Of a stretch of 64,000 nucleotides of DNA, positions 12,811 through 64,000 are shown one piece after another. Source of the stretch: Flavobacterium sp. Sd200 (GTDB lineage: Bacteria; Bacteroidota; Bacteroidia; Flavobacteriales; Flavobacteriaceae); the NCBI RefSeq assembly GCF_009826935.1, contig NZ_WUMN01000002.1:1-64000 (forward strand), given 5' to 3'. A program made the translations under genes and the position numbers. Each line of letters starts with the position of its first letter. Position 1 is the stretch's first letter. Under the pieces are notes generated by a model, which had not been told where the DNA came from, ran no database searches, and saw only the letters and a list, made by a program, of their open reading frames with translations.

Positions 12811-12829
12811 TTTTTGTATTTGTTTTTTT

Positions 12830-35385: not shown

Positions 35386-37293
35386 TTACTTACCTTTTAC
35401 AATAGTAATATTTGGTTTAGGCACTTCAGGCATTTTTTCGTCCATATAGAAACTGGCATGAGGTGGCTGATTGTATGCCACATTTTGCCACGCAATGCTA
35501 AGCCTGTATTGTGGATTGTGCATTAGTGTGTACAGTCTGTGGTCTGTAGGTATAGATGTACTGAAAATACGTAGTTCGTTGTTATCTTTTGTCCTGTAAA
35601 TTACTTCTTCACGCCAGTCACCAAAAAGATCTACCGATAATACTGGTGTCGATTTTGTTCCGTTGTTACTAACACAGTCGTAATTAGCGGCATCAAAAAT
35701 AGTGTTGCTTTTACCGTTTATATAATCCCATTTGTCTATTACAGTACTGTTAAGTATTTCGCTAAGCATGTCTCCATCCCAGTAAATACCAAAATTGCAG
35801 GCGGGTGCCGTTTCAGATATCCTGTTACCTTTACAGTCGAACATACCGCTCATACCTGCACTGGTAGCCCAACATTCTGAACCCGGATAACGCGGATCTA
35901 TATTTAACGCAAGGCCGCGTCCTGGCCCCTGGCCTTTATCTGCCTTAGAAAGAGAAGGTTTTTTCCAAAGCACCTCGCCTGTAGCACCATCTCTAAAGTG
36001 CATACCGGCATCGTCAAAACGTTCCTGGATGTCAAATATCTCTATCCCCGGATGTGTCGGGTCCAAATCACCCACATGCAAAGCATCGCCATGGCCAAAA
36101 CCTGTACTGTTCAATCCTTTGCCATTGTCGTCTAACGTCATGGCACCATACACAATTTCATCTTTACCATCGTTATCTACATCGGTAACAGATAGGTTAT
36201 GATTTCCCTGCCCTCTGTATTTTCTATTTTCTTCAGAACTGTCGCTATCAAACAACCAGCGCAGGCTTAGTTTCTTATCTTTAAAATCGTAAGCAGCAAT
36301 CGCAGTACGGGTGTAGTAGCCCCTTGCCATTACAAGGCTCGGTTTTTTTCCGTCTAAATAGGCAACTGCAGCTAAAAAGCGGTCGCTGCGGTTACCATTA
36401 CCATCTCCCCATATTTCTTTAAGTTGTTCCTGTGTAGGGTTTTCAGTATCCGGATGACGTGGCACCTCATATTTTACCGTGTGTATTTCGGCACCTGTAA
36501 GTCCGTCAAAAACGGTTAAATATTCAGGCCCCAAAAGTATATGCCCTTTTTCGTTTCGCCAGTCTTTAGAAGCGTCGCCTATTACTTTACCTTTTCCGTC
36601 TTTAGTACCGTCGGCAGTCTTCATAGCAATTTCTGCCTTACCATCACCATCAAGGTCATATACCATAAACTGAGTATAGTGTGCGCCTTCGCGAATATTT
36701 TTCCCTAAATTAATTGTCCACAATAATGTACCATCTAATTTATAAGCCTGAAATATCGGGTCGTCTGTTGGACCATCATGGCTGTTATCATGAGCTTTAC
36801 CCGTTTGGTGCAATATAATTTCATATTCGCCATCGCCATCAAGATCTCCAACCGATGCATCTCCCGGTGCATAACCTTCCGGTGTTTTTAAGGGTATTGA
36901 CAAATAAGGCACATCCCCGGGTTTAAGTGTAAATGAATCTTTAGATGGTAATTCTTTTTTACCTTCTAAAGCTTTTACCACATAGGTATTAGGCTTATTT
37001 TTATCGGCTTTAGCATCTAAGAAATTAGTACCTTTTGTTAACGGCTTCGAGTTTAGTTTCACTTCTTTACCATTGGTAACTTTATAAACATTAAAAGCTG
37101 TTTTGGCATCGTCAGTACCCAGCAATCTCCAACTTACGAAAACTCCGTTACTACTGTGGGTTGCCGAGACACCTCTGTTTAAATATTCCATTTGCTGCTG
37201 TGCCATAAGGCTTCCTGTGGCGCCAAAGAACAGCATCGCTGCACATGACACATCTCGAAATCGATTTAGTAAACAAGGTAAACTTTTTGCCAT
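35386..37293 (-). CDS. Rhamnogalacturonan lyase, PL11 family, secreted
   Basis: 635 residues with an N-terminal signal (ending LMAQ). Cleaves the Rha-GalA backbone of RG-I by beta-elimination, leaving unsaturated galacturonyl ends. The sequence shows an N-terminal fibronectin-like strand set (MEYLNRGVSATHS, FVSWRLLGTDD) and an eight-bladed-propeller pattern with calcium-binding DxDGDG repeats (GDLDGDGEYEI, YDLDGDGKAEI, TDVDNDGKDEI), plus HQTGKAHDNSHDGP, all typical of PL11 (YesW/YesX relatives). It likely heads the operon PL11-CE12-GH43-GH42. It has no complete RCAGGAY operator, only the irregular element at 37327-37355. Confidence 0.94.
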   Translation of the reverse strand: MAKSLPCLLNRFRDVSCAAMLFFGATGSLMAQQQMEYLNRGVSATHSSNGVFVSWRLLGTDDAKTAFNVYKVTNGKEVKLNSKPLTKGTNFLDAKADKNKPNTYVVKALEGKKELPSKDSFTLKPGDVPYLSIPLKTPEGYAPGDASVGDLDGDGEYEIILHQTGKAHDNSHDGPTDDPIFQAYKLDGTLLWTINLGKNIREGAHYTQFMVYDLDGDGKAEIAMKTADGTKDGKGKVIGDASKDWRNEKGHILLGPEYLTVFDGLTGAEIHTVKYEVPRHPDTENPTQEQLKEIWGDGNGNRSDRFLAAVAYLDGKKPSLVMARGYYTRTAIAAYDFKDKKLSLRWLFDSDSSEENRKYRGQGNHNLSVTDVDNDGKDEIVYGAMTLDDNGKGLNSTGFGHGDALHVGDLDPTHPGIEIFDIQERFDDAGMHFRDGATGEVLWKKPSLSKADKGQGPGRGLALNIDPRYPGSECWATSAGMSGMFDCKGNRISETAPACNFGIYWDGDMLSEILNSTVIDKWDYINGKSNTIFDAANYDCVSNNGTKSTPVLSVDLFGDWREEVIYRTKDNNELRIFSTSIPTDHRLYTLMHNPQYRLSIAWQNVAYNQPPHASFYMDEKMPEVPKPNITIVKGK

Positions 37294-49492: not shown

Positions 49493-51040
49493 CTACAACT
49501 TCAAAATTTTCACTTCTTTAAGATTTTTATCTTTTAAATCATTTACCCTGTGCGTACTGAAGCTGCTTACATCTTTCAGTTTAAACGCCTCAACACCGGG
49601 CATGGTTTGTACTTTAATATCAGAGAAATCTGCCCCTTTAACATCTTCCAGTATAAAGGCTGGGCGGTAATCGGGCGTATCAAATTCGAGGGTAATGTTA
49701 TGCATTCTTATGTTTCTTGCATGACGAATGTAAAATCCATAAGCCGGAATGTCTCCAAACTCCTGGGGGTCTGGGTAAGAAGTTTCCTTTTCAGGAACTA
49801 TTACCGCTGACTGTTCTTTAGGCGCACCGCCCTTTACCCTTATGTAAATGTTTGAAAGTACAACATCTTCAACATCATGCCCCGGTATGCCCATAAGCAT
49901 GGAGCCATATTGCGGGTTAGATGCTGTAATGGTTACATTGTCTATAAGTACGCGCTTAAAGCTGCCCACTTTCATTTCGGCAGGGCCACGCATGCGTTTT
50001 CCCAACCTGAAAAAAAACGGTGCATTAAGCACGTCGTCCATTACAATATTAGATACGGTTATGTTTTCAAGGTGTGAGCCGTCTACCGTTTCCAGTGCCA
50101 AACCGCGACAGTGCTGAAACGTACAGTTTGATATGGTTATGTTCCTGAAATCTCCGTTACTTTCCGTTCCCAGTTTTATCCTGCCTGTAACCACACCTTT
50201 ATCGGGTGCGGCTTTTTGGGTGGTTTTATAAGTGCCATCCAAAAAAGTACCTTCGTCAAAACCGTAAACAGCGCAGTTGGTTATGGTAATATTTTCGGTA
50301 GGTGCGGCATAGCCTAAAGCGTACGATGCCTTTAGTACCAATGCATCGTCGTTAGGCGAATTAAGCGAGCAGTCGCTCACCCGCACATGGCGGCAACAGT
50401 CTATATCTATAGCATCGCGGTTGGTGTCTATTTTTAAATTATTAATGGTAAGGTTATCAACCCCTGTGGTAATAATGGCAAAATGCCCACCGTGCAGTAT
50501 TGAAAAATCACGCAATATTACATTACGGCATTTTTTTAAGGCGATAGATTTGTTGCCCAAACCCGGAGTGGCCCTGCCCCATTTTTGCAGGCCTTTGCCG
50601 TGAATTAATCCCGAGCCAAGAATGGAAACATTATCAAGCTCTTCGCCCCAAATAAGACTGTTGCGGAAATGGCTGTGGCCAAAGTCCTGATATTTTAAGG
50701 AATCGCCCCATACGTTGGGTTCGGGGTCGTCGTACTTGCCGGGATGTTCGTCCATATTGGCAGCCGTAATGGTACTGCCCGCACTCAGGTAAAGCGAGAT
50801 ATTGCTTTTTAGCCTGATGGAAAAACTAAGGTAATTACCCGCCGGAAAAACCACCGTGCCGCCACCGTCTTTAAAGGCGGCATCTATGGTTTTATTTATG
50901 GCATCGGTATCTAAAGTGGTGCCGTTGCCGGTTGCCCCATAATCTTTTACATTATAAAAAGGCTTGCCGTTGCCCGGCTGTTGTGCCAAGGTTGGTAAAC
51001 CAAAAACTGTAAGCAGAAACAACAGGGCAATATACTTCAT
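49493..51040 (-). CDS. GH28-family beta-helix glycosidase, secreted
   Basis: 515 residues with a signal peptide (ending TLAQ). Parallel beta-helix beginning NVKDYGATGNGTTLDTDAI. Active-site region: NRDAIDIDCC, SPNDDALVLKASYAL and a YGFDEGTF segment; the usual GHG histidine motif is not obvious, and the C-terminal part is longer than in typical polygalacturonases. It is therefore a divergent GH28, possibly an exo-acting RG-I galacturonidase with unusual specificity. Its stop is 105 bp from the GH2 start and its own start is 4 bp after the next GH28. Confidence 0.85.
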   Translation of the reverse strand: MKYIALLFLLTVFGLPTLAQQPGNGKPFYNVKDYGATGNGTTLDTDAINKTIDAAFKDGGGTVVFPAGNYLSFSIRLKSNISLYLSAGSTITAANMDEHPGKYDDPEPNVWGDSLKYQDFGHSHFRNSLIWGEELDNVSILGSGLIHGKGLQKWGRATPGLGNKSIALKKCRNVILRDFSILHGGHFAIITTGVDNLTINNLKIDTNRDAIDIDCCRHVRVSDCSLNSPNDDALVLKASYALGYAAPTENITITNCAVYGFDEGTFLDGTYKTTQKAAPDKGVVTGRIKLGTESNGDFRNITISNCTFQHCRGLALETVDGSHLENITVSNIVMDDVLNAPFFFRLGKRMRGPAEMKVGSFKRVLIDNVTITASNPQYGSMLMGIPGHDVEDVVLSNIYIRVKGGAPKEQSAVIVPEKETSYPDPQEFGDIPAYGFYIRHARNIRMHNITLEFDTPDYRPAFILEDVKGADFSDIKVQTMPGVEAFKLKDVSSFSTHRVNDLKDKNLKEVKILKL

Positions 51041-51044
51041 ACCC

Positions 51045-52718
51045 TTATTTTTTAGAGAGTTTTAAAACAGATTTGCCTACCTCTTTTGCCGTAGTAACCT
51101 TTTCTTTACCGTAAGCCGATTTTATGGCTACGTTTTTGGTTTTGCTGCCCTGTACTTCTATAACCGTTCCCACGCTTTCTGCGGTAGTAAAACCGTCTAT
51201 AGCTACGTTCTTTACATTTCTAAGCACTAATGGGGCACCTTTCTCTGCAATGATTTTTACATTCTTAAGGTTGATGTTTTCCGACTCTACTATCTCACCG
51301 CCATTCTCAGAGTTTACTGTAATGTTCTCAACGTTTATATTGTCGATATTTTTTTCAGGAAGCCCATTAAAAAACATGGCCCTTTTGGCACCGCTGCATA
51401 TTACATTTTTAATGTAGATGTTTTTAAACACCGGGGTGGTTTCGTCAACTTTAGGCAGTACTTCAGTTTTTGGAGTTTTTACGCCTTCGTCTAATGTTTC
51501 CACTGCCGATTTACCCCCATAATACAGGTCAAAAAGCAACGGGTCGGTCGAAATATCAAACATGCTGATGTTATTGATGTAGATGTTTTCTACAACTCCG
51601 CCCCTGCCCCTGCGGCTTTTGAAGCGAAGGCCCACATCGGTACCCAGAAACTGACAGTTAGAAACCGAAACGTTTTTAACCCCGCCCGACATTTCGCTGC
51701 CTACCACAAAACCACCATGGCCTCTAAACACTGTACAGTTATATACAATAAGGTTTTCACACGGGAAAGCGCGTTTCCTGCCGTCTTCATCCTTACCTGA
51801 TTTGATACAGATACCATCATCGCCCGCATCAAAAGTGCTGTTTACAATGATGGAGTTCTTGCACGACTCAAGGTCGAGTGCATCGCCGTTTTGCGAATAC
51901 GAAGGGTTTTTGGCCAAGATGCCGTCTATAATTACATTTTCGCACATCAGCGGGTGCAGGTTCCACGCAGGTGAGTTTTGGAAAATCACACCCTGCAGCA
52001 ATACGTTTTTACACTCCTGTATGCTTACCATTACAGGACGTAAAAAATCGTGTATAGATTCCCATTCCGCCTGTGTTTTTAAGTTGGTAGGCACATTCAT
52101 GTTACTTATCGTGTCGCCCTTTAAAAATTGTGCCGATGGCACCCAATAATCTTTACGCTTAAACACACCTCCTTTAGAGGTCATTTCTTTCCACTGCCTG
52201 TCAGTCACCTTGTCTTTTTTAAGGGCGCGCCAATATTGACCGTTACCGTCTATAGCACCTTTACCTGTAATAGCCACATTGGTTTGACCCTTAGCCCATA
52301 TGGGCGACTGGCAACGTTTTGTATCCAAACCTTCAAACGAAGTGTCGATTATTGGATATAATTTTTTATCAGGCGAAAACAATATAATCGCATTGTCTTC
52401 CAGGTGCAGGTCGATGTTACTTTTCAGCACAATAGGGCCTGTAAACCAAACCCCGGCAGGCACCCTTAAATGCCCACCACCTTTAGCCACAAGGGCATCT
52501 ATAGCCTTGGCAAAGGCTTGGGTGTTTAGTGTAACGCCATCGCCCACACCGCCAAAATCGGTTATTAGCACCCTGTTTTCAGGAAAAACGGGAGCAGACA
52601 ATACCGGCATGCTGAATGGCAGGTCTTTATAAAGATATTCGTAGGTGCTTTTTTGCGCAAATGCTGTAAGGCTGCAAAAGGCAGCCACAACGGTTAACAG
52701 TATAATTGATCTTTTCAT
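51045..52718 (-). CDS. GH28 polygalacturonase / RG galacturonohydrolase family, secreted
   Basis: Start at ATG 52718 (MKRSIILLTVV; 557 residues), just after the GH105 stop; the frame from 52748 would overlap that gene. Signal peptide ends TAFAQ. Beta-helix with QNGDALDLES, AGDDGICIKSGKDEDGR, RGHGGFVVGSEMSGG (catalytic His) and RFKSRRGRGG (the R-x-K site), so the whole GH28 set is present. A C-terminal extension of further helix rungs follows (about 430-540). It probably frees galacturonate from RG-I or homogalacturonan oligosaccharides. Co-transcribed, 8 bp after GH105. Confidence 0.93.
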   Translation of the reverse strand: MKRSIILLTVVAAFCSLTAFAQKSTYEYLYKDLPFSMPVLSAPVFPENRVLITDFGGVGDGVTLNTQAFAKAIDALVAKGGGHLRVPAGVWFTGPIVLKSNIDLHLEDNAIILFSPDKKLYPIIDTSFEGLDTKRCQSPIWAKGQTNVAITGKGAIDGNGQYWRALKKDKVTDRQWKEMTSKGGVFKRKDYWVPSAQFLKGDTISNMNVPTNLKTQAEWESIHDFLRPVMVSIQECKNVLLQGVIFQNSPAWNLHPLMCENVIIDGILAKNPSYSQNGDALDLESCKNSIIVNSTFDAGDDGICIKSGKDEDGRKRAFPCENLIVYNCTVFRGHGGFVVGSEMSGGVKNVSVSNCQFLGTDVGLRFKSRRGRGGVVENIYINNISMFDISTDPLLFDLYYGGKSAVETLDEGVKTPKTEVLPKVDETTPVFKNIYIKNVICSGAKRAMFFNGLPEKNIDNINVENITVNSENGGEIVESENINLKNVKIIAEKGAPLVLRNVKNVAIDGFTTAESVGTVIEVQGSKTKNVAIKSAYGKEKVTTAKEVGKSVLKLSKK

Positions 52719-52726
52719 TGTATATT

Positions 52727-53884
52727 TTATTTTCCTAATTCTAAACATCCCATAATAAAAGGTCCGGTAGCTTTGGCATCGTTATCCCTTATGCGCTCGT
52801 TAACATAGTATTCAAAACTGCCGTCTCGGTATGGCGTTCCACCCAGTCCGGCCACGGCACAGCATTTTGTAAGGGTCAGCGTTCCGTCGGCATTTTTAAC
52901 AATAAGATTTTTCATCAGACCATCATATGCCTTTTCGGCTACCTTTCTATACTTGGCATCTATGTAACCTTTGTTAACGGCCTTGGCATAGCTATACATA
53001 AACATAGACGATACCGATGCTTCAAGGTAATTGCCCTGCTGTGTACCTTTGTCTACCACCTGATACCACAACCCGGTTTTGTCCTGATATTTAAGCAGCG
53101 TTTCGGCAAGCCCTTTAATAATATTGATAAGCTCTGCACGTTTAGGGTGGTTTTGCGGTACATAATCCAGTACATCTACCAATGCCATGTACCACCAGCC
53201 TATGCTCCTGCCCCAAAAATTCGGCGAATGCCCCGTGGTTTTATCGGCCCATTTTTGGTTTTTGCTTTCGTCCCACGCGTGGTAGTACAAACCTGTTTTG
53301 GCATCATACGTGCGGTTGGCACAAACTAAAAACTGGTTAATTACATCGTCTATCATTTCAGGTTTGTTGAACGTTGCGCCATACTGCGCCAAAAAAGGCG
53401 ACCCCATATACAAACCGTCCAGCCATATCTGGTGCGGATACACCAGCTTGTGCCAGTACACCCCCTCGTGCGTGCGCGGGTGATGTTTCATTTGGTCCAC
53501 AAGCCTGTCCATGGCCAGTTTGTATTTGTTGTTGCCGGTTTGCTTATATACGTCAAACAGTATTTTCCCCGAGTTTACATAATCTATATTGTAAGTATGC
53601 AGTTCATACAGATGAATTTCGCCTTTATCATTAATAATGGTGTCTGCCCATTTAACAACGTAGTCCAGGTATTTTTTGTCATTGGTTTTTTCCCAAACCT
53701 TAAGCATGGCAAGGCAACCAAGCCCCTGCGAATAGCCAAAGTATAAACGCTTGCCATGGTCCAGCTGCCACGCTTCGGGAAAGCGCTTCATCTCCGAATC
53801 AGCAAATAGCTTAGCCGTTTTTTGCGCTTGTACCATAGGGGCAAGTAAAAGCAATATTATTAGTATTAAAAAGTGTTTTCTCAT
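52727..53884 (-). CDS. GH105 unsaturated rhamnogalacturonyl hydrolase, secreted
   Basis: Start at ATG 53884 (MRKHFLILI; 385 residues), giving a signal peptide ending MVQAQ; six extra residues in the frame from 53902 are unlikely. GH105 barrel: WQLDHGKRLYFGYSQGLGCLAML, YNIDYVNSGKILFDVY, HHPRTHEGVYWHKLVYPHQ (read as HPRTHEGVYWHK), IWLDGLYMGSPFLAQYG (catalytic Asp), FWGRSIGWWYMALVDVLDY and KCCAVAGLGGTPYRDGS. Third GH105 of the window and closest to the compact YteR-like form. A complex inverted repeat lies upstream (53930-54084). Confidence 0.93.
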   Translation of the reverse strand: MRKHFLILIILLLLAPMVQAQKTAKLFADSEMKRFPEAWQLDHGKRLYFGYSQGLGCLAMLKVWEKTNDKKYLDYVVKWADTIINDKGEIHLYELHTYNIDYVNSGKILFDVYKQTGNNKYKLAMDRLVDQMKHHPRTHEGVYWHKLVYPHQIWLDGLYMGSPFLAQYGATFNKPEMIDDVINQFLVCANRTYDAKTGLYYHAWDESKNQKWADKTTGHSPNFWGRSIGWWYMALVDVLDYVPQNHPKRAELINIIKGLAETLLKYQDKTGLWYQVVDKGTQQGNYLEASVSSMFMYSYAKAVNKGYIDAKYRKVAEKAYDGLMKNLIVKNADGTLTLTKCCAVAGLGGTPYRDGSFEYYVNERIRDNDAKATGPFIMGCLELGK

Positions 53885-53929
53885 ATTGGTAATTTTCACC
53901 ATTAATTAGTATAAATAGCCCTTTGCATT

Positions 53930-54084
53930 TATTGTCTCGCAAAGGCGCGAAGGCGCAAAGCGTGACGAAATATTTTTCAGCATAAAGCGGCTGATAAGCC
54001 GCTAAGCTTAGCGGCTTATCAGCCGCTTTATGAATTAGATTTTAAGGTTATCGCTCTGCGCCTTCGCGCCTTTGCGAGACAATA
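53930..54084. repeat. 33-bp inverted repeat enclosing a 52-nt perfect palindrome
   Basis: Outer arms 53930-53962 and 54052-54084 match at 32 of 33 positions (core CTCGCAAAGGCGCGAAGG). Between them 53981-54032 is a perfect 52-nt palindrome centred on AAGCTT, whose halves themselves can fold (AGCGGC / GCCGCT). It fills the 218-bp gap between the six-hairpin glycosidase-like gene and GH105. GC content is far above the other intergenic regions. Confidence 0.93.
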
Positions 54085-54102
54085 AACCGTAGATATAAAC
54101 TC

Positions 54103-56241
54103 TTAAGGCATTGGTTTCAGTCCTTCCCAAACAATATCCCATTTGCCGTTTTTAGGGAAACCCGGTGTTGTGGTGGTTGCACCGTCCCACCCGGCACACA
54201 TCATGGCTACGGCAGCAAGCATACCGCCATTGCCCGGCAGGTACACGCGCAGCCTTTCGTCCTGATAGTTGTGCCCATTCAACAAATAGGTGTTGGTACG
54301 CTTATCCATAAGCAGTGCACCCACGGCTTTTTCGGGCTCACCCAGGCGGGCAGCACTCATGGCTACCATAGGGTAATCCCAGCCCCAGGTTTCGTCCCAG
54401 TTCCAGTTGTCCCAAATCCAGTTCAGGGTGGTTTTCATGGTTTCGGGCTTAAGCAGTTTGGTTTGCGGCAGTATGCCCACAGCACCTAAAACGGCAGGGT
54501 GGTCTGACGTAAAGCGTACATCGGTATAGGTATTCAGTGCATCTTCAGAGGCAAGGTATAAACCGTCTTTTTCTTTAAGCGATGATAGTTTTGCTATAAT
54601 TTTGTCCCACTCAGGGTTGCGTTTTTCGCCCATGCGCTCCCTCCACTTTTGCGCTGTGGAAAGTGCGAAATGCCAGTATGAAAGTTCAAAAGGCGGGTTT
54701 ACAGTTTCAGATGCCCTAAGGGTTTCCTGCGCAGCAATAACCCCCTGAAGAATGTAGCGGTCTTTAGCCTTATCATAATCGGCAAACGATGCCATGAACT
54801 CAGCAGTTTGCTGTACCAGGAAGTTATATTTTTCAACCACTTTTTTATCAGGGTTGTTCCTGTAAATAAGCTCTGCCATATAAATAAAGTGTGGCTGCTG
54901 CCAAATAAGGAACGAGCCTACACCCGATGGTGCTTCTTCTGCCGAAGGGTCGGTCATTTTCATCCAGCGGATGCCTTTAAAACCCTGTCTTTCGGCAATT
55001 TGTTTAGCTATAGGATAGGCTTTTGCATACCAGTCCATGCTTCTTTCAAGCAGGTCGGCACGGTTCCAAAGTGCAAAATGGGCTGCGTGCCACCAATGCA
55101 TCTCTAAGTGAAATTTGCCGAACCAGCTATTATATGTAAGCCCTGTTTCCTGCGGAGGATACATCCCTGCCGACTGTATAGCCATTAAATATTGCGACAG
55201 CATAATGCGGCGTTCCAGTTCTTTTGCCCTGGCATCGGTAGCTTTAGAGAAATCTATGGCACCTCCTTTTTTCCAAAAATCGTTCCAGTAGGTTTGTGAA
55301 CTGTTGTAGGTTTCCTGCGCTGTGCCTAAAGATTTGGCAGGTGCCTTATCTGTAAATTCGCAGACAAAAGAAAATTCCCTACCCGATGGCGTTAGCACAA
55401 AATAATGCGGCTCTTTTTCTTTTAAAGTGGCTTTGCCTGTATATTTAACAGATACGTAATACACCGTGGTATCCAGCGTTCTTTTTAACGTAAACGATTG
55501 CGAGTCCTGCGAAAAAATTTCGGTTTTATGTTTACCGGGAGAAGTCCAGTCTGAAGCATCGTCGGTATGTTTCCCTGTAGGGTAAGGAAAACGGAAGTTG
55601 ATGCCCAATTGTTTTTTGCTTATCAGTGCCGATTTAACAGATACCGCTATCTGGTCTTTTTGTGCACTGGCCGCTGTTTTTACGGTTACGGGGGTGCCTT
55701 CAACCATATAGGAACTGTTTATAAAACCGTTCCACAACTCCAGCTTTTGGTGTATGTTAGTAATATCTTCAGGCTTTATTGCACTACCATTTTTGTTTGT
55801 AAGTTCGAGCCCAACGTAGCCCAAGTGCAGCCTATGCGCATTGGCCCTAAAATAATTTGATGCATCCTGCTGCCTTCCCGGTTCTTTTATCTGTACAGAA
55901 TAGGGTTCTTCTTTACCCCTAAAGTTGTAATTTTTTAAGGCCTCTTCATGTTTATAATTTTCTACATTAGGATAGCTGTGCCATCCCCATTGCGACTGTG
56001 TTCCCAGCGGTACACCTGTGTTGTACACCTCCGGAAAGGTTTGCAGCCCGGTAGCATCTACCGTATAAGCAAAGTTGCCGTTACCGACTGACAACGATGC
56101 ATGTCTGTCAAACTTGGTTACCTGAGGGTTGTTGCGGTCAGCAAGCGCCTTCCGGTCTATTTTGTTTTGGGCGTTTACTATCCCGAAGGATAAGGCAAGC
56201 GCGCCAACTAACAGTTTCTTTTTTAATGTGTTGTAGGTCAT
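54103..56241 (-). CDS. Unassigned secreted glycosidase-like protein (beta-sandwich plus six-hairpin barrel)
   Basis: 712 residues with a signal peptide (about 1-24, ending VNAQ). I cannot place it in a named GH family. An N-terminal beta-rich part (about 30-310: FDRHASLSVGNGNFAYTVDATGLQTFP read as short strands, HLGYVGLEL, VSVKYTGKATL) precedes an all-helical part (about 320-700) with NSWFGKFHLEMHWWHAAHFALW, WMKMTDPSAEEAPSG, IWQQPHFIYMAEL, ELSYWHFAL and NWNWDETWGWDYPMVAM. This matches the overall plan of clan GH-L and GH95-like enzymes; the Glu in FHLEMHWWH is a candidate catalytic residue. It is co-transcribed with GH28 (44 bp gap) in the SusCD-proximal operon. Acting on RG-I oligosaccharides is inference. 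Confidence 0.75.
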   Translation of the reverse strand: MTYNTLKKKLLVGALALSFGIVNAQNKIDRKALADRNNPQVTKFDRHASLSVGNGNFAYTVDATGLQTFPEVYNTGVPLGTQSQWGWHSYPNVENYKHEEALKNYNFRGKEEPYSVQIKEPGRQQDASNYFRANAHRLHLGYVGLELTNKNGSAIKPEDITNIHQKLELWNGFINSSYMVEGTPVTVKTAASAQKDQIAVSVKSALISKKQLGINFRFPYPTGKHTDDASDWTSPGKHKTEIFSQDSQSFTLKRTLDTTVYYVSVKYTGKATLKEKEPHYFVLTPSGREFSFVCEFTDKAPAKSLGTAQETYNSSQTYWNDFWKKGGAIDFSKATDARAKELERRIMLSQYLMAIQSAGMYPPQETGLTYNSWFGKFHLEMHWWHAAHFALWNRADLLERSMDWYAKAYPIAKQIAERQGFKGIRWMKMTDPSAEEAPSGVGSFLIWQQPHFIYMAELIYRNNPDKKVVEKYNFLVQQTAEFMASFADYDKAKDRYILQGVIAAQETLRASETVNPPFELSYWHFALSTAQKWRERMGEKRNPEWDKIIAKLSSLKEKDGLYLASEDALNTYTDVRFTSDHPAVLGAVGILPQTKLLKPETMKTTLNWIWDNWNWDETWGWDYPMVAMSAARLGEPEKAVGALLMDKRTNTYLLNGHNYQDERLRVYLPGNGGMLAAVAMMCAGWDGATTTTPGFPKNGKWDIVWEGLKPMP

Positions 56242-56285
56242 TATAGTTTTATTGTAGGGTTTAGTTTTTAAGCAGAAGTTAATAG

Positions 56286-57605
56286 TTAGGGTTTAACATC
56301 TACTTTTTTAAGGACTACATTTTTAATAGCCTTGGTATTATCTATTAAACCTTTGTTGGTTTTAAGACTAATGTTCTGGAATGTAAAATCTTTAAGCTGG
56401 TATTTGTCTGAATCAGAAATATCGAAGCCCATTCCAACCTCCAACTTAATGTTTTTCATAACAATTTTTTGCGCGTAAGACATTAATGGTTCCGTACGGC
56501 CTTTAAGGTCAAAAAACTGGGTCCATGGCTTAATGCTTATTAGGCTGCCGGCACTGCCTGTAAGGTCTTCTACCGTAATGTATTCGTAGTTTTGAGGGGT
56601 GTCGGGACGCATTTTAAGGTGTAGTGTTTTTTGTGCACCATTCAGTTTGCAACGCCTGAAGATAATGTTATAATTGTGTATCGACTCACTGCCACAAGTA
56701 AGGGCACTGTGGGTAAAACCATACTCATTATCTTCAATTATAATGTTGCGGTTTTCGCCATTGGCTTCGTCTTTGTCTGAATATGGGCCTTTGCCGCCTT
56801 TCAGCGCAATGGCATCATCGTTGACCGACATGTAGCAGTTTTTAACCAATACGTTTTTGCAAACATCAAGGTCTATGGCATCAGTGCTTGGTGCTTTTAC
56901 CGGATCTTTAGGCGATGTAATGCGCAGGTTAAGCAGTTTTACATTCTCGCATTTGTAGTAATGAGTAGTCCAGAACGGGGCATCTTTTAAGTTAAGACCC
57001 GACACCTGAATATTTTTACTGTTAGAAACATAAATAAGGCGCGGCCTCATTTCGTCTTTGTTGGTACATTTAGGATTCCACGAGCGGCGCAGCCAAAAGG
57101 CTTTCCAGTACCTTAGCCCGTTACCGTTTATGGTTCCGCTGCCGCTGATAGTAAAACCGTCTACACCATCGGCATTAACCAACGCTGGGAAGTATTTACA
57201 GGTTTCGCCCTCTATGCGAGTGGTTACCACCGGGAAATCGCTAATATCATCGCTGCCCTTAAGTACACCGCCCTGCTCTACATACAGGTGCGTGCCCTGT
57301 TTAAAAAACAATGCACCGCTAAGGTAGATGCCTTTAGGTACTACTATAACCCCACCGCCCGATTGTGCAGCCTTGTCTATTACCGCCTGTAATTTTTCGG
57401 TTTGCACCACTGTACTGTCTCCCGAAACTCCAAAATCAGTTATTTTATACTGTTTGCCCAGTTTAGCAATATTTGTTGGCTCACTTTTTTTGAACCAGTC
57501 CGGTATTACTGTGCCATCAGGAAATTTGTCCTGAGCAGTCACCAATACAGGGACTGCCAATAGCAGTAACAGAAGTCTTAAAAACGGTAAGGTTACGTTT
57601 TTCAT
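56286..57605 (-). CDS. GH28-family glycosidase, secreted
   Basis: 439 residues with a signal peptide (ending VTAQ). Beta-helix with GGGVIVVPKGIYLSGALFF, PSTDAIDLDVC, VNDDAIALKGGKGP, FTHSALTCGSES (His) and HLKMRPDTP (Lys-Arg site). It has the GH28 acid pair and one His but a shorter loop after the DD motif than the others. Probable oligogalacturonide or RG-I exo-hydrolase. Fourth GH28 in the window; 6 bp after the CE7-type esterase. Confidence 0.9.
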   Translation of the reverse strand: MKNVTLPFLRLLLLLLAVPVLVTAQDKFPDGTVIPDWFKKSEPTNIAKLGKQYKITDFGVSGDSTVVQTEKLQAVIDKAAQSGGGVIVVPKGIYLSGALFFKQGTHLYVEQGGVLKGSDDISDFPVVTTRIEGETCKYFPALVNADGVDGFTISGSGTINGNGLRYWKAFWLRRSWNPKCTNKDEMRPRLIYVSNSKNIQVSGLNLKDAPFWTTHYYKCENVKLLNLRITSPKDPVKAPSTDAIDLDVCKNVLVKNCYMSVNDDAIALKGGKGPYSDKDEANGENRNIIIEDNEYGFTHSALTCGSESIHNYNIIFRRCKLNGAQKTLHLKMRPDTPQNYEYITVEDLTGSAGSLISIKPWTQFFDLKGRTEPLMSYAQKIVMKNIKLEVGMGFDISDSDKYQLKDFTFQNISLKTNKGLIDNTKAIKNVVLKKVDVKP

Positions 57606-57611
57606 GATAAG

Positions 57612-58907
57612 TTATTTAAGCTGTGTTTTTATCCAGTTAAGGATCTTTATTTTTGTATTATCTGATGACCAATGTTCATTTACAGGAGTAATAAGAGCGG
57701 TTTTACTTGCCTTAATTACATTATATGCGGCATAACTTGTAGTAGGTGGGCACGTATTGTCATTAAAACCCCAAGTCATGAAAACAGGTACTTTTATTTG
57801 TTTTGCAAAGTTCACTACATCATAATATTCCAGCGTTTTTATGATCTCGGGCTTGTCCATGCCTTTTAGTTCTTTAAACATGTGAGGGTATCCTCCTGCC
57901 CTATCGTGCAGGTATCCTACCATATCGCTAAGGGCAGGATAGCTTGCTGCACAAACCGTAACCCTTGGATCTAAACCAGCAGTAACTAATGCCAATGCAC
58001 CACCCTGACTGCCGCCCTGGGCTATAACATTTTTACCGTCCCATTCAGGAAGCGACGTAATGTAATCGATTGCGCGAACACACGAAAGATAAACTTTTTT
58101 CATATAATATTTATCCCTGTCTTCAATGCCGTTTACAAGGTAGCCATTGTCTCCCCCACTAAAAGCTCTTGCTATTTCTTTATAAGTCTTGGCATCAAGA
58201 TCGGGCCTTATGCCATGTATCTCGGTCTCAAAACGTATCAATCCATTTTCGGCATAGGCCATACTTGTAGGGTTAGACGGATCTACCACATGTATCCCGG
58301 CACCCGGAGGTGTAAATACCACAGGATATTTACCCGGCTTTTTAGGTATGGTTAAGTATCCATATATATTCACGTCTTCTTTATAGGCCTGTACCTTTAC
58401 AAGGTAACAATCTACTTTATCTGTAGAAAATTCGGGTTTAAAAACCTTTTCGACTTTCATGGGGCATAAAGCGGCCTCTTCTTTAGCTTTGCTCCAAAAT
58501 TCATTAAAATCGTTAGGATATTTTGTGTAAGGCTCTATTTTTTCCGGATCAAAGCCCACTTTAACGTGGTGTTTATATTGCTGTCCTTCTATCTCGGCAG
58601 TAAGCCTGCAATCTACAAAACCAGGCTTGTTTAGAGTACCTAAACTAAGCTCAGCCTTTCCCTTTACGAGCTTTATTTTTCCTTCTTTAGTAGCCTTTAA
58701 CAGTTCCGGACCTATGCTGTATTTAATTTCTATGTCCTGAGGTATACCATAGCGGTAAAACTGTATGGTTACTTTAGCTTCTTCGTTTACTTTATACACC
58801 CAGTTAGTACTGCCAGGGGTTGTAACCCAAAGCACGTCACTGTTAGTTTGTGCTATTGCTATGCAATTGGTAAGTAATAAAATTAAAAACAGTAGTATCT
58901 TTTTCAT
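57612..58907 (-). CDS. Acetyl esterase, CE7 (acetylxylan esterase/cephalosporin deacetylase) type
   Basis: 431 residues with a signal peptide (ending IAIAQ). An N-terminal beta domain (about 25-125) is followed by an alpha/beta-hydrolase (about 130-431) with YGYLTIPKKPGKYPVVFTPPG, the nucleophile elbow GGSQGG, an Asp region in TWGFNDNTCPPT and a C-terminal NEHW His. CE7 enzymes deacetylate short oligosaccharides broadly. Here it would finish deacetylation of imported RG-I or side-chain oligosaccharides. 2 bp after the CE12-like gene; co-transcribed with GH28. Confidence 0.88.
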   Translation of the reverse strand: MKKILLFLILLLTNCIAIAQTNSDVLWVTTPGSTNWVYKVNEEAKVTIQFYRYGIPQDIEIKYSIGPELLKATKEGKIKLVKGKAELSLGTLNKPGFVDCRLTAEIEGQQYKHHVKVGFDPEKIEPYTKYPNDFNEFWSKAKEEAALCPMKVEKVFKPEFSTDKVDCYLVKVQAYKEDVNIYGYLTIPKKPGKYPVVFTPPGAGIHVVDPSNPTSMAYAENGLIRFETEIHGIRPDLDAKTYKEIARAFSGGDNGYLVNGIEDRDKYYMKKVYLSCVRAIDYITSLPEWDGKNVIAQGGSQGGALALVTAGLDPRVTVCAASYPALSDMVGYLHDRAGGYPHMFKELKGMDKPEIIKTLEYYDVVNFAKQIKVPVFMTWGFNDNTCPPTTSYAAYNVIKASKTALITPVNEHWSSDNTKIKILNWIKTQLK

Positions 58908-58909
58908 GT

Positions 58910-59623
58910 TTATTTAAACAATTTAGCAATTGGTGCTTTTACTTTTTTACAATCGTCAACAAACAATTTTGCTACCCTTTCTGCTCCCTGAACATTTAAA
59001 TGAGTGGAATCCTGTTTTTTATCGGTAAACAAAAACAACGATTTTGATTCTTTTGGCCCCATACCACCAACCAAATTTCGGGTAAGGCTTTCCATATCCA
59101 CATACATGGTCTTTGTTTCTGTAGCAACCTCTTTGGCAGCTTTTATATAATCGCCATGACTGTCTATAAGGTTTCCTTTTCCATCAAAATGCCTGCGTAC
59201 TATAGATGAACACAATATAGGTGTTCCTTTATGTTCGCGGGTTTCGGTAATAAATTTTTTAAGGTTGTCTTTATAAGAAGTAAAAGGCTCCGTATGACGA
59301 TCAGGATTTGGTTTTTGGTCGTTATGCCCAAACTGTATAATAACATAATCACCGGGTTTAATGCTGTCGCACACAGCTTTCCATCGGTTCTCGTTTATAA
59401 AACTCAGCGTACTGCGTCCGTTTACGGCATGGTTGTGTACTGTAGCTTTATCATTTACAAGTTTACGTAAACCTTCTCCCCATCCCAATTCCGGAAAAGC
59501 ATTTTTGCTTTTAGGCGCCATAGTAGAGTCGCCAATCATCCAAATACCTGTAGTCGCAGGTTTCTCCGGTGCTAAAATAGCTGTAGTAAAAATCAGGAGA
59601 GCAAATACTTTTATAAAATTCAT
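58910..59623 (-). CDS. Rhamnogalacturonan acetylesterase, SGNH/CE12 type
   Basis: Start at ATG 59623 (MNFIKVFALL; 237 residues), which puts a signal-like hydrophobic stretch at the N terminus; the frame from 59668 runs into the promoter side. SGNH motifs: MIGDSTMAPK (Ser), AVNGRSTLSF (Gly), IQFGHNDQK (Asn) and QDSTHLNVQGA (Asp-His). Removes acetyl groups from RG-I galacturonate. It heads a run of exported enzymes after susD, 162 bp downstream, with its own likely -7 box in that gap. Confidence 0.92.
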   Translation of the reverse strand: MNFIKVFALLIFTTAILAPEKPATTGIWMIGDSTMAPKSKNAFPELGWGEGLRKLVNDKATVHNHAVNGRSTLSFINENRWKAVCDSIKPGDYVIIQFGHNDQKPNPDRHTEPFTSYKDNLKKFITETREHKGTPILCSSIVRRHFDGKGNLIDSHGDYIKAAKEVATETKTMYVDMESLTRNLVGGMGPKESKSLFLFTDKKQDSTHLNVQGAERVAKLFVDDCKKVKAPIAKLFK

Positions 59624-59702
59624 AATACCTAAGGTTAATGTGTTATAAACTATTTTAAAAATCAGCAATTAAATATAAAAAAAGTAAATCAACACACAAT
59701 AA

Positions 59703-59785: not shown

Positions 59786-61777
59786 TTAATAACCAGGGTT
59801 TTGCATAGCCTGCTTTTGAGCTGGCGAAAGTGGCACACCTCCCGAAGTAACAAGGTCAAGGAAGGTTTGCGGTATTGGCCTTAACAGGTGTTTGTCCTGA
59901 ACGTTTGCAGATGCAGTAGGATTATATGCCTGAACTCGTTTTACAAGCGTTTTAGTTCTTGAAAGGTCTTCCCAACGGTGGAACTCTCCACAAAGTTCTC
60001 TTGAACGCTCATTCAATAAGAAACACATCATACGGTCGTAATCAGAACTATAGCCAAGCCTTGCAATAACGCGCTCGTCTTCTGTCGGTAAAGCATTGAT
60101 GTTTGTAACAGCAAGGCTGGTAGCAGCTGTTGTAGTGGCAATGTGAGTAGACTCATAGTATGAATTCTCTGTCATGTATGAGTTGTCATTAGGAACCGAT
60201 GCAGTTGAAGAAGCAAAGGCTGCACCACCATCTACGTAAGCGGCACGGTTTTCACCTGCTTTAAACGAAGCACGGTCGCGAACTGCATTTATGTAAGTTA
60301 AAGCATCGTTGTAAGAACCTGAACCCATTGCAGCTAACTTAATTTTTGCCTCAGCAGCAATCAGATAAGTTTCTGCAGAACGTGCAAGTATCTCGTCACG
60401 GAAACCATTAGTTTCATTAATCCCAAGCCTCGAAGCATCAAAGTGTTTAGACAGCGATGGGAAACGTGGCTCTAATGTTAGCAACTGATTTGAGGCATTG
60501 TGTGCCACATAAACACTTGGAATGGTTTTGGTAGTTGTAACCGGATTTCCATTTTCCGTAAACGTACGGGTGTAAAGAATGCCCGGGTCGTTATTATACT
60601 TCCTTTGTGCAAAGGTATTGTCATTTATATCATTAATCACGTACATAATACCTAGATCACCTTTAACATAGTAGCTTCCTGACGCGTTGTTAAGACGGTG
60701 TTTAGTACGGAAACTTTTCCATAAACGCGAATCGTTAACAAGGTCATAATTTTCATACGTATAATATGAAGGAGCCAGCCTGCTGTATGGGCGCATACCT
60801 GTAAGGTCCCTTTTCATCATAGGAAGGTCATCATATTTTGAAGCAAACACCACGTGCATAAAGTTTTTGGCAGTAGCACCCGGGTCACTTGTAAACTGAG
60901 CTGATAAGATTAGTTCCGGCAGCGATTCGTTGGCACTGTTAGGTGCTGTAAAATTCCAAAGGGCACTGTAATTAGCCGCCAAAGCATGGCGTGATATTAC
61001 TTCGTCGCAAAGGGTTACCGTCTGATTAAGATCCGCCTGTTTGGTTGAACTGTTCCAGGTGTCGTTAATCTCACTTGCGCGGCTAAGCAATGCTTTAGCA
61101 AGATAATGTGCTGCTGCATCTTTAGTAATTTTAGCAGGTGCTCCTGTATTAGCCAACAGGTTGTAAGCCTGTGTAAAATCGGCTACAATCAGGTCATATA
61201 TTTCCTGAGGTGTAGCACGAGTAAACTCAGTCTCTACCGTAGTTGTAACGTTTGTTTTTAAAGGCACGCCTCCAAATTGCCTAACTAAGCGCAGGTAGCT
61301 GTATGCCCTGAAAAAATAGCCTTCTCCTAAAGCAGTTTGTTTAATAGCTGTACTGGTAGAAGAGCTTTCTGTTGCATATTTAATGATCTGGTTCGCAATA
61401 TGGATACCCAGATAAGTATCATCCCATTGGCGCTCCATGCTTATGGTATTACTGTTAATAGCATTTATCCTCGACTGAAATGCTACAGTATAATTGTTCC
61501 ATACACCGTTAGAGTCATCCCCCCCTATTACAAATTCATCTGTCCCGGAGTTCATAGAGGTCATCATTACCTCTCCGGCAAAGGGAACAGCAAACATACG
61601 GTAATATCCTCCTATTACTAATGATTGTATACCTTCATCTGTTTTATAATAATCTGTATTTCGTTGCGTAGTAAGCTCTTCGTCAAGAAAGTCGTCATGG
61701 CACGATTGCGTAAGACCCATAGCAGCTACAAGCAGTGCTATGTTGATACCCTTAATTAATATTTTACGTGTTTTCAT
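59786..61777 (-). CDS. SusD-family outer-membrane glycan-binding lipoprotein
   Basis: 663 residues. Lipoprotein signal (LTQSCHDD) puts it on the outer membrane, exposed at the surface. It follows the SusD/RagB pattern: N-terminal FLDEELTTQRNTDYYKTDEGI, helical TPR-like segments (FFRAYSYLRLVRQFGGVPL, AAHYLAKALLSRA), ETYLIAAEAKIKLAAMG and C-terminal RSRELCGEFHRWEDLSRTKTLV with LLRPIPQTFLDL. It caps the SusC transporter and binds oligosaccharide, here predicted RG-I fragments. Only 17 bp after susC. Confidence 0.96.
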   Translation of the reverse strand: MKTRKILIKGINIALLVAAMGLTQSCHDDFLDEELTTQRNTDYYKTDEGIQSLVIGGYYRMFAVPFAGEVMMTSMNSGTDEFVIGGDDSNGVWNNYTVAFQSRINAINSNTISMERQWDDTYLGIHIANQIIKYATESSSTSTAIKQTALGEGYFFRAYSYLRLVRQFGGVPLKTNVTTTVETEFTRATPQEIYDLIVADFTQAYNLLANTGAPAKITKDAAAHYLAKALLSRASEINDTWNSSTKQADLNQTVTLCDEVISRHALAANYSALWNFTAPNSANESLPELILSAQFTSDPGATAKNFMHVVFASKYDDLPMMKRDLTGMRPYSRLAPSYYTYENYDLVNDSRLWKSFRTKHRLNNASGSYYVKGDLGIMYVINDINDNTFAQRKYNNDPGILYTRTFTENGNPVTTTKTIPSVYVAHNASNQLLTLEPRFPSLSKHFDASRLGINETNGFRDEILARSAETYLIAAEAKIKLAAMGSGSYNDALTYINAVRDRASFKAGENRAAYVDGGAAFASSTASVPNDNSYMTENSYYESTHIATTTAATSLAVTNINALPTEDERVIARLGYSSDYDRMMCFLLNERSRELCGEFHRWEDLSRTKTLVKRVQAYNPTASANVQDKHLLRPIPQTFLDLVTSGGVPLSPAQKQAMQNPGY

Positions 61778-61794: not shown

Positions 61795-64000
61795 TTAGAA
61801 TTCAAAGTTAAGCCCAGAAACAAAGCCTCTGTTAAAAATAGCATTGTTTACATCCATGTCCCTAAAGTCTATTGCAGAATAGATCATTCCCGGGTTAAGC
61901 GCCTGCACGTACAGCCTTAAACTACTGATTTTTAATTTATCTGTTATCGATTTAGGGAAATTATACCCTAAAGATATGTTTCTTATTTTAATAAACGTAG
62001 CATCCTCATAACCTAAACTTGTAGCATAAGGGTCTCCTGTTCCTGAAGTATAGATTGGCTTTTGGTAATCAGAATTCTGATTTATCTCTGTATAATAGTT
62101 TAATTGTCTTTGGTTGTAGCGTCCTGTTAGAGCCTCCCCACCTGCATTATACATATATTTCAGCCTACCATAAAGGAATATTGAAAGCTCTATACCTTTA
62201 TATTTAAAGGTATTGGTCATACCCACAACATATTTTGGCATGGTGTTACCTACAATTGTACGGTCGTTGTTTTCATCTATTTTATAGTCGCCATTTAAAT
62301 CTGCCGGCCTTGCGTTACCTGCTGAGAATGTGTGACCATTAGCATTAAACCTTGCCATTTCGGCAGCATCTTCAGGTTTCCATATACCATTAGACTTATA
62401 ACCGTAAATTACACCTAACTGCTCACCGATAAACCAGTTGTTCTGAATATCATCAAACTTACCTGTAGAAAGCGTTACAATTTCATTATCCTGTGTAGAG
62501 GCACTTAATGTAGTATCCCAAGAAAAGTTTCCTGTATCTATATTAACAGTATTAAGTGTAAGCTCTAAACCATTACTTTTTGTTTCACCAACGTTTGCAA
62601 TGGTAGTTGTATAACCCGTTACAGAAGGGATGTTTTTAGTTAAAAGCAAATCAGTAGTATGTGCAGTAAAATAGTCTAACTGACCTGATATCCTGTTACC
62701 AAAGAATGAGAAGTCAACACCAACGTTATAGGCAGTGGTTTTCTCCCATGTAAGATCCTGATTGGCAAGAGCTGTATTTGTTACCGTACCGGCATTAAGT
62801 CCAGGCCCTGTTGGATAAAATAATGGAGAAAGCGGGCCTTTTGTAGAGTAGGCATCAATAGCAGAGTTACCTGTAGAACCCACCTCTAAACGCAGTTTTA
62901 AATTATCAAGCCAGTTTACATCCTGAAGGAAGCTCTCTTTTTTAATAGTCCAGCCTAAAGCCGCACTTGGGAAGAAGCCCCATTTGTCTCCGTCAGCTAG
63001 CTGAGACACACCATCATAACGACCAGATGCTGTAAAATCATAGCGATCATTAAAAGAGTAGTTTATACGCCCCATGTAAGAATATATCTGTCTTTCTGTT
63101 AAACCAGAACCCCATGATAAAAGAGCAACGTTTGAATTAGTTAAAGCATCCCACTTTTGATCTGAATAAGGTATGTTGTTTGCAGCAGAGCTGTTATACT
63201 CATATTTAAATTTGGTTTCACTTTGCAGTAACGTAAGGTCAAATTTATGTCTTCCAATCTGCTTGTCATAAAAGATAAGGTGATCTAAAGTATAAGACAG
63301 GTTGTTGTTAGCGTTAAGCGACGCATAGCTTGTTCCTGAACGTACTACTGAAAGCTTATCAAGGTAAAGACCATTTCGGTTGAATGACATATCCGGACCG
63401 AAGTTAACCCTATATTTTAAACCTGCCAACGGCGACCAAATTTTACCAAAATCTAACTGTCCGTAAAAACTGGCAAATATCCTGGTATTTACACGCTCGT
63501 CAAAAGAGTAATTTACCTCATCAATCACAGTCCTTACACCATCATCTCCACCAGGGAATATAATACGGTTTCCGGCATCATCATAAGGTAGTGCATAGCT
63601 AAATACAGCACGTGCAGTATCATACAAACTACCCGCAGTACTCACACTACGACCCGCCTCAGACTGTCCGTAGTTTTGCACACCATAGCTTCCGTTCATA
63701 GTACCTCCAAAAGAGAACCAATCCACCGGGTTAATATCAACACTTACTTTTCCTGTATAGCGCTCGTATGCCTGCCCTATAACTGTACCTTTACTGTCAA
63801 GGTAACCAAAAGATCCAAATGCTTTTACCTTATCAGAACCTCCGCTCACGTTAAGTGTGTACTGATTGGTTACACCAGTTTGTGTAACATAGTCTGTCCA
63901 GTCTTTAGACTGCACTCTTGATCCGTCCCATGTTCCTGTTTCCCAACCTCTGGCAATATTTGCAAATGCTGTTGGATCAGCAGTGGCATTAAATATAGCC
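61795..64000 (-). CDS. SusC-family TonB-dependent outer-membrane transporter (5' partial)
   Basis: The minus-strand frame is open to the right edge (last complete codon ends at 63999), so the start and the TonB box, plug and carboxypeptidase-like domain lie outside; the GTG at 63915 is internal. About 735 C-terminal residues are visible, the beta-barrel part: QYTLNVSGGSDKVKAFGSFGYLDSKG, RINYSFNDRYDFTASGRYDG, GWTIKKESFL, LRLEVGSTGNSAI and the terminal NRGFVSGLNFEF with a C-terminal Phe, as usual for SusC. It forms the import complex with SusD and starts the utilisation operon. Confidence 0.96.
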   Translation of the reverse strand, partial: AIFNATADPTAFANIARGWETGTWDGSRVQSKDWTDYVTQTGVTNQYTLNVSGGSDKVKAFGSFGYLDSKGTVIGQAYERYTGKVSVDINPVDWFSFGGTMNGSYGVQNYGQSEAGRSVSTAGSLYDTARAVFSYALPYDDAGNRIIFPGGDDGVRTVIDEVNYSFDERVNTRIFASFYGQLDFGKIWSPLAGLKYRVNFGPDMSFNRNGLYLDKLSVVRSGTSYASLNANNNLSYTLDHLIFYDKQIGRHKFDLTLLQSETKFKYEYNSSAANNIPYSDQKWDALTNSNVALLSWGSGLTERQIYSYMGRINYSFNDRYDFTASGRYDGVSQLADGDKWGFFPSAALGWTIKKESFLQDVNWLDNLKLRLEVGSTGNSAIDAYSTKGPLSPLFYPTGPGLNAGTVTNTALANQDLTWEKTTAYNVGVDFSFFGNRISGQLDYFTAHTTDLLLTKNIPSVTGYTTTIANVGETKSNGLELTLNTVNIDTGNFSWDTTLSASTQDNEIVTLSTGKFDDIQNNWFIGEQLGVIYGYKSNGIWKPEDAAEMARFNANGHTFSAGNARPADLNGDYKIDENNDRTIVGNTMPKYVVGMTNTFKYKGIELSIFLYGRLKYMYNAGGEALTGRYNQRQLNYYTEINQNSDYQKPIYTSGTGDPYATSLGYEDATFIKIRNISLGYNFPKSITDKLKISSLRLYVQALNPGMIYSAIDFRDMDVNNAIFNRGFVSGLNFEF

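Follow-up and report, generated by a model that had tools for sequence, protein, structure and literature searches.

A Putative Pectin-Linked Glycosidase Lineage beside GH65 and GH95, Founded by a 712-Residue Protein of Flavobacterium sp. Sd200

Introduction

The closest described relatives of the protein considered here belong to the glycoside hydrolase (GH) families GH65 and GH95. In the GH65 hydrolase FjGH65A, the general acid is E472, the Gln mutant of which lost activity; the general acid of this family sits between helices 5 and 6, and the hydrolase base (E616 in FjGH65A) lies between helices 11 and 12 (PMC8626586). The catalytic set of the GH95 enzyme AfcA is given as N421, N423 and D766 (PMC12282258). 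The rhamnogalacturonan I (RG-I) route of Bacteroides thetaiotaomicron comprises lyases, GH105-type galacturonidases, GH106, GH28, galactosidases, a GH2 glucuronidase, GH27 and an esterase (PMC8002723), so that the RG-I backbone steps already have enzymes. The present study concerns a 712-amino-acid (aa) open reading frame (ORF), hereafter the target, in a stretch of 64,000 nucleotides of Flavobacterium sp. Sd200 (contig NZ_WUMN01000002.1, positions 1 to 64,000), which is called the window. The target lies between GH28 and GH105 genes near SusC/SusD, as a first-pass annotation made from the sequence had placed it, and is encoded on the minus strand.

The target is a distant relative of GH65 and then of GH95, according to profile comparison, a predicted model and a phylogenetic tree, and by the same evidence its family seems to form a lineage of family rank next to GH65 and GH95, belonging to neither. 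With a probability of about 0.6, the target is an exported enzyme of the GH65/GH95 superfamily, a probably inverting exo-glycosidase that takes one sugar off the ends of pectic oligosaccharides. Export, activity, inversion, the identity of the base and the substrate are what we infer from the predicted fold, the homology, an aligned acid, the invariant acids and the genomic setting. The broader proposal of a new GH family with a non-canonical base arrangement and a pectin activity that no named family covers, paired with the uncharacterised family DUF4450 (PF14614), is tentative, the odds being somewhat against it. The literature search, which left most subscription papers outside its reach, returned no description of such a family in titles and abstract openings and no paper on DUF4450.

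Fold, Profile Comparison and Phylogeny

A profile of 33 family members had seven matches in the PDB up to E 10, and all of them were GH65: kojibiose phosphorylase (the best, 4.7e-5), two glucosylglycerol phosphorylase and four PGGHG sequences. As was found by hhalign, the family aligned to a seven-sequence GH65 alignment with E 7.8e-11, to three hydrolase-like GH65 sequences with E 2e-5 and to twelve GH95 sequences with E 0.0056 (probability 6.5%). When all 76 homologues were used, the values were 8.2e-11 to 2.3e-6 for GH65, depending on the setting, 1.4e-4 for the hydrolase-like sequences and 0.048 for GH95. Two runs with the global option aligned 2 columns only and were disregarded.

The AlphaFold model, built from 48 sequences (predicted local distance difference test, pLDDT, 87.0; predicted template modelling score, pTM, 0.88), shows a beta-rich half at the N terminus and a helical barrel at the C terminus, residues 1–24 and 651–665 being uncertain. 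A Foldseek search with this model ranked FjGH65A first (E 2.7e-24) and a GH95 protein next (3.5e-22). In the VIA fold comparison, the Z score was 32.0 to PGGHG 9sd8 (551 residues, root-mean-square deviation 3.2 Å), 31.1 to FjGH65A 7fe3 (584 residues, 3.0 Å) and 29.6 to the kojibiose phosphorylase 3wiq, followed by 23–27 to GH95 (best 27.4) and 24.9–26.0 to GH139. Glucoamylases, which we take to be GH15, scored 21.2–22.0 (3eqa over 316 residues), about 10 below GH65, and no GH125 or GH154 entry was named in the 50 VIA rows shown. The glycosidase-like plan of a beta-sandwich and a helical barrel, proposed in the first-pass annotation, is thus supported by the model and the fold comparison, with GH65 as the closest family; the predicted model shows the GH65 succession of beta-sandwich, linker and (alpha/alpha)6 barrel. 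FjGH65A and human PGGHG (9sd4–9sd8) resemble the target in the beta-rich domain and barrel, in a general acid in the matching loop and in Z scores of 30–32; they differ in that the target family shows only 14–16% identity, lacks an invariant acid where the hydrolases carry their base and forms a separate lineage. The order of domains is also shared with GH95 (7kmq, 4ufc) and GH139 (9hyq, 9hmb; compared by fold only), at Z 23.8–27.4 over the four entries.

The maximum-likelihood tree, rooted at the midpoint, was built on 36 rows, made up of 17 out of the 76 from the family, 7 from GH65 and 12 from GH95. The family formed one group with a support of 100/99 and a stem of 3.25 changes per column, compared with 3.21 for the GH95 stem, and was drawn beside GH95; several rows deviate in composition. 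Overall, the family appears to be a solid lineage of family rank whose link to pectin is clear; its fold, however, is a familiar one.

Spread of the Family and Searches against Named Families

A scan of GTDB contigs gave at least 590 pattern matches, at least 577 of them encoding relatives, and the best 80 of these relatives were retained for further work. The best match among those listed, with 80% identity, is from Flavobacterium rivuli, where the gene order is nearly the same and GH42 and GH2 are swapped. The family was detected in 28 of the 395 Bacteroidota genomes drawn (one of them with a 64-residue fragment with a stop only) and in 21 of 170 genera. A plasmid collection yielded nine homologues with 37–41% identity, from Asticcacaulis, Arthrobacter, Paenarthrobacter, Streptomyces and Nonomuraea; seven of the nine records label the match 'hypothetical protein', one is unannotated and one shows no label. 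The 76 homologues used throughout, 72 from two alignments (A1 and A2) and four plasmid proteins, together span three phyla. The target is not a chance ORF, because 51 of its 712 columns are identical in all of them.

The target reaches no Pfam or NCBIfam cut-off and a single-sequence search of the PDB with it reached no named family. To this extent the earlier failure to match it to a GH family stands; the distant kinship with GH65 and then GH95 amends it. No Glyco_hydro_65m match was listed for the target up to E 10 in Pfam, and Glyco_hyd_65N_2 scored 13.4 bits against a cut-off of 27.7. Among the 33 diverse members (Pfam, E up to 1), Glyco_hydro_65m was found in 8 and Glyco_hyd_65N_2 in 12, though the latter cannot separate GH65 from GH95, because the GH95 protein of the window carries that domain too. 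One of 20 relatives scanned singly (L096) passed the GH65 Pfam cut-off, with 31.7 bits against 27. A match of Pfam DUF4689 to the target (13.8 bits, cut-off 27) was treated as noise. No Pfam or NCBIfam model exists for the family.

One homologue of 1166 aa (L076 10004–13504) has a long C-terminal extension, where only a weak TSP3 repeat match was seen. A divergent paralogue with 36% identity (L109 1438–3549, contig 74 of genome G347) groups with a Streptomyces plasmid protein in the tree, and the same genome has a second copy at 47%.

Candidate Active-Site Residues

Eight of the 77 acids are invariant in 76 of 76 homologues, namely D330, E341, E343, E365, E380, E506, E519 and D622, and in the model they lie in or next to loops between barrel helices. 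The proposed general acid is E506. In all five GH65 hhalign runs that gave an alignment, its partner is E462 of L163, a GH65 hydrolase-like protein of 668 aa. Judging by motif and offset, E462 would correspond to E472 of FjGH65A. E506 is placed between model helices 466–486 and 517–536.

The first-pass annotation had taken the motifs FHLEMHWWH and WDETWGWDYP to suggest an active site. Their acids E380 and D622 are indeed invariant, but E380 aligns, in the full GH65 profile, with a sugar-binding Asp, and the place of the acid is taken by E506, which it had not named. E380 was considered as the general acid and set aside as ambiguous: it pairs with the −1 subsite Asp of GH65 in all three full-profile runs, and with nothing in the hydrolase-only runs; in the GH95 comparison its partner is a Gln that follows the second Asn of Asn-x-Asn by two residues. 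A general-acid role for E380 is improbable, because the Asp with which it aligns in the full GH65 profile binds the −1 sugar.

D622, which opens helix 622–632 of the model, seems the best candidate for the base and a plausible holder of water. Counted back from the paired R632/R577, its position is two residues past the presumed site of the phosphate-binding serine pair; the hhalign partner of D622 is a nearby Asp, D562. Where GH65 has its +1 subsite, the family carries R425-W426-M427-K428, a possible carboxylate site. K428 pairs with a Trp taken as the GH65 +1 Trp (W391 of FjGH65A); the Trp-Glu of GH65 hydrolases reads Lys-Met; R425 is replaced, by Trp, in two Asticcacaulis proteins only.

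In the proposed mechanism, the substrates would be the oligosaccharide ends left by lyases and GH28 from rhamnogalacturonan I and adjoining galacturonan, met in the periplasm or at the cell surface. E506 would protonate the leaving group, and the attack on the anomeric carbon, with inversion, would come from a water molecule for which D622 is the most likely holder; R425 and K428 may hold the carboxylate of galacturonic acid at +1. The leading guess for the substrate is an alpha-linked sugar on galacturonic acid, no single linkage being given more than about one chance in four. The family may take off a decoration or serve a particular oligosaccharide.

Genomic Setting and Pectin Link

The neighbourhood survey covered 104 unique loci (105 less a B. 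ihuae duplicate), of which 67 have 8 kb on both sides; the loci from the GTDB scan are a biased set, because they are those of the closest homologues. Neighbouring proteins were clustered after crude ORF calling (120-aa floor, 80-bit link) and labelled from one Pfam-scanned representative or from matches to window proteins. Within 8 kb in the 67 loci, the GH28 cluster occurred at 33, DUF4450 at 31, SusC at 29, two GH105 clusters at 25 and 6, PL11 at 9 and GH106 at 9, and a cluster that chains PL1-like with GH43-like proteins (cluster 4) at 15. At least one of GH28, GH105, PL1-like or PL11 was present in 48 of them. In line with what we take to be the usual assignments, GH88-type proteins are called GH105 here, a sub-cut-off Pectate_lyase_4 match PL1 and Pec_lyase PL10. 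At one locus (L011 7606–9972), a 788-aa protein directly upstream of the family has an N terminus that looks PL1-like by eye, as in cluster 4, and a partial GH43 match at the C terminus.

In the 28 family genomes of the evenly drawn set, GH105 was found within 20 kb in 15, GH28 in 14, PL11 in 12, GH106 in 7 and any of the four in 20. With random placement, about 4% of genomes would be expected to have a GH28 gene inside the 20-kb limit (copy number estimated). Over the 395 genomes, PL11 occurs in 21, of which 17 have the family, and GH106 in 59, of which 25 do. The genus-level hypergeometric value was about 1e-9 for PL11 and for DUF4450, with phylogeny and genome lifestyle otherwise uncontrolled. 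One family protein (L079 9197–12076) is fused behind a GDSL esterase domain; a member of A2, probably the same one, matches the pectin acetylesterase PaeY at 1.8e-18.

Plasmid neighbourhoods were examined for four of the nine records (H3, H4, H5 and H7). In two Asticcacaulis plasmids the family adjoins a pectate lyase (Pec_lyase, the domain being tested in one) and has DUF4450 within about 8 kb, and one of the two also carries GH28, GH88, oligogalacturonate lyase and kduI nearby. Strict specificity for RG-I was dropped, because homogalacturonan-type lyases adjoin the family too, both PL1-like (the sub-cut-off match) and PL10-type (Pec_lyase in Asticcacaulis). The RG-I setting suggested earlier holds as a pectin setting that includes RG-I lyases, with homogalacturonan-type lyases beside them.

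DUF4450 as a Partner

DUF4450 was found in 14 of the 395 genomes; all 14 also have the family, in 13 within 20 kb. It sits immediately downstream of the family gene, in the same orientation, at 35 of the 87 loci with at least 4 kb of downstream sequence. In the source genome its gene is on a different contig, next to SusC/SusD, GH28 and a GH105 resembling the neighbour of the target. DUF4450 proteins at 45 loci are mostly 1030–1250 aa long. At one locus (L027 12087–15742), the gene is split into two ORFs, of 598 and 624 aa, that overlap, reflecting a frameshift or an assembly error.

A model of the Phocaeicola vulgatus DUF4450 protein (pLDDT 80.3) shows a beta-rich domain, a helical barrel and further beta domains. 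VIA placed alpha-L-rhamnosidases first (Aspergillus niger Rha-2, Z 23.7; GH78 entry 2okx, 20.2), and GH94-type phosphorylases, with Z 20–21, were ranked first by Foldseek. The GH78 barrel profile matches the DUF4450 ORF of the source genome with 29.7 bits against a cut-off of 24.5 and, by position, those of eight more genomes (G308, G012, G331, G118, G324, G007, G021 and G343), G021 and G343 being under the cut-off; in the remaining 5 of the 14 genomes it gave no match at E 0.001. DUF4450 is accordingly a GH78-like putative glycosidase and the likelier rhamnosidase-like member of the pair, because of the VIA ranking and the GH78 profile matches. The two families are alike as uncharacterised barrel proteins, by model, and as genomic partners; they differ in that DUF4450 belongs to a separate, GH78-like lineage.

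Alternative Functions

GH106 is the known RG-I rhamnosidase family. An alpha-L-rhamnosidase that acts on the RG-I backbone in turn with GH105 and GH28 would suit compact clusters such as L006, where GH105, GH28, an esterase, the family and DUF4450 stand together and no GH106 or GH78 was recognised within 8 kb, and R425 and K428 could then bind a +1 galacturonate. Reached by elimination, such a role would lead one to expect genomes without GH106, but 25 of the 28 family genomes have it, in addition to its proximity in seven, so the family is no substitute for GH106; moreover, DUF4450 is the more GH78-like of the two. A rhamnosidase thus has a small chance of being correct. The first-pass proposal of the target as a candidate for a missing linkage activity in RG-I depolymerisation remains conjectural, given the same GH106 count and the homogalacturonan-type lyases in the setting.

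A GH65-type alpha-glucosidase or phosphorylase placed in pectin clusters by chance is unlikely. In its favour, no known family is closer than GH65, the kojibiose hydrolase model of NCBIfam matches 8 of the 33 members at E up to 0.01 (best 1.3e-9), and the fold is close to phosphorylase 3wiq, also the best PDB profile match. Against this, the hydrolase base is not conserved, and the lineage is separate in the tree. W619-G620 would stand where phosphorylases have the two serines of a phosphate site that also comprises Lys and His, by counting from R632/R577 (hhalign leaves 619–620 unpaired), the Lys-Gln pair of the −1 subsite would read Ser-Asp, as extrapolated from the full-profile runs, and phosphorolysis is unlikely as the protein looks exported.

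A GH95-like alpha-L-fucosidase or alpha-L-galactosidase has similarly slender odds. The fold scores to GH95 and GH139, the position beside GH95 under midpoint rooting and the weak Glyco_hyd_65N_2 matches, which fit GH95 as well, speak for it; the sequence link is weak, with the E values given above, and the window already holds a true GH95. In addition, the GH95 Asn-x-Asn with its activating Asp has no counterpart in the family: the stretch at the matching helix reads GKFHLEM, and P669 pairs with an Asp taken as D766 by presumed equivalence. A non-catalytic glycan-binding protein with a degenerate barrel would explain the missing GH65 hydrolase base, catalysis being read from sequence comparison, but is very unlikely, since such a protein would have no need to keep E506, and eight acids, that at the acid position among them, are invariant over three phyla.

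Several observations count against an exported pectic exo-glycosidase, which is nevertheless preferred. Single-sequence matches to GH65 are weak, the target itself falling under the cut-off. Against GH95, hhalign pairs E506 with an Asp two residues past an invariant Glu, and E380 meets the −1 Asp with the full GH65 profile only, being unpaired in both hydrolase-only runs that aligned. No invariant acid was found among the 76 homologues in the loop matching the GH65-hydrolase base, about 644–668, as located by profile alignment in a loop of low confidence. As to the setting, 19 of the 67 full-flank loci have no GH28, GH105, PL1-like or PL11 gene within 8 kb, and 8 of the 28 genomes have no GH105, GH28, GH106 or PL11 within 20 kb. 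GH3 or GH97 genes, and no pectin genes, adjoin the family in the plasmids examined from Paenarthrobacter and Streptomyces. The co-occurrence was counted for pectin-linked families, and some of it may merely mark large genomes equipped for sugar degradation.

Many pectin clusters carry both the family and DUF4450, though the published B. thetaiotaomicron pectin route looks complete (PMC8002723). If an activity were shown for either family, hundreds of GTDB records would need a new annotation, and a pectin linkage outside current enzyme sets may come to light. The missing GH65-type base poses a clear mechanistic question.

The Target Gene and Its Surroundings

The minus-strand gene order is SusC, SusD, SGNH, AXE1, GH28, target, GH105, GH28, GH28, GH2, GH42 and GH88/105, the target being gene six of this SusC-led run. 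Elsewhere in the window there are PL11, GH95, GH43, GH42, GH78, another GH28, more GH88/105 and GDSL genes, uronate catabolism genes, a rhamnose-type kinase and an aldolase/dehydrogenase; the window is an RG-I/pectin utilisation region (Table 1). The N terminus of the target resembles a signal peptide by eye and the protein looks exported; a lipobox-like Cys occurs in 36 of the 76 homologues in a crude pattern search. A scan of 53700–56500 for promoters and terminators gave no clear excess over shuffled sequence.

Table 1. Coordinates of the target, its parts and residues, and related genes (window positions unless a locus is named).
Feature	Position	Strand	Remarks
Target ORF, founder of the family	54103..56241	minus	712 aa, ATG start; transcribed 56241 to 54103
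Signal-peptide-like N terminus, residues 1–24	56170..56241	minus	inspection by eye; pLDDT < 50
N-terminal beta-rich domain, residues 34–300	55342..56142	minus	secondary structure of model
Helical barrel, residues 308–690	54172..55320	minus	model and fold comparison
Motif FHLEMHWWHAAH, residues 377–388	55078..55113	minus	sequence
E365 in PPQETGL, invariant loop acid	55147..55149	minus	76/76
E380 in FHLEMHWWH	55102..55104	minus	76/76
R425-W426-M427-K428, place of GH65 +1 subsite	54958..54969	minus	K428 76/76, R425 74/76
E506, proposed general acid	54724..54726	minus	76/76; aligned with GH65 general acid
Motif WDETWGWDYP, residues 615–624	54370..54399	minus	W619-G620-W621-D622 invariant in 76-homologue alignment
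D622 of WGWD, candidate general base	54376..54378	minus	76/76; putative role
Loop at place of GH65-hydrolase base, residues 650–666	54244..54294	minus	no invariant acid; low model confidence
GH28, upstream in operon	56286..57605	minus	
GH105 (Pfam GH88), downstream	52727..53902	minus	
GH28	51045..52748	minus	window GH28 most often matched near the family in other genomes
GH28	49493..51040	minus	
AXE1-type acetyl esterase	57612..58907	minus	
SGNH/GDSL esterase	58910..59668	minus	
SusD	59786..61777	minus	
SusC	61795..63915	minus	runs off the window
PL11 rhamnogalacturonan lyase	35386..37293	minus	same gene run as target
True GH95 of the window	26957–29416		domain match
DUF4450 protein	L189 9400–13134		contig 28 of G000

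Two further genes of the window were noted. An ORF of 434 aa (11530–12834, minus strand), between an FGGY kinase and the aldolase/dehydrogenase, has no Pfam match at 1e-5 and perhaps encodes a sugar isomerase. A DUF4350 protein (40583–41407, minus strand) is encoded in the uronate/pectin gene run, between mannitol-type dehydrogenase and GDSL genes.

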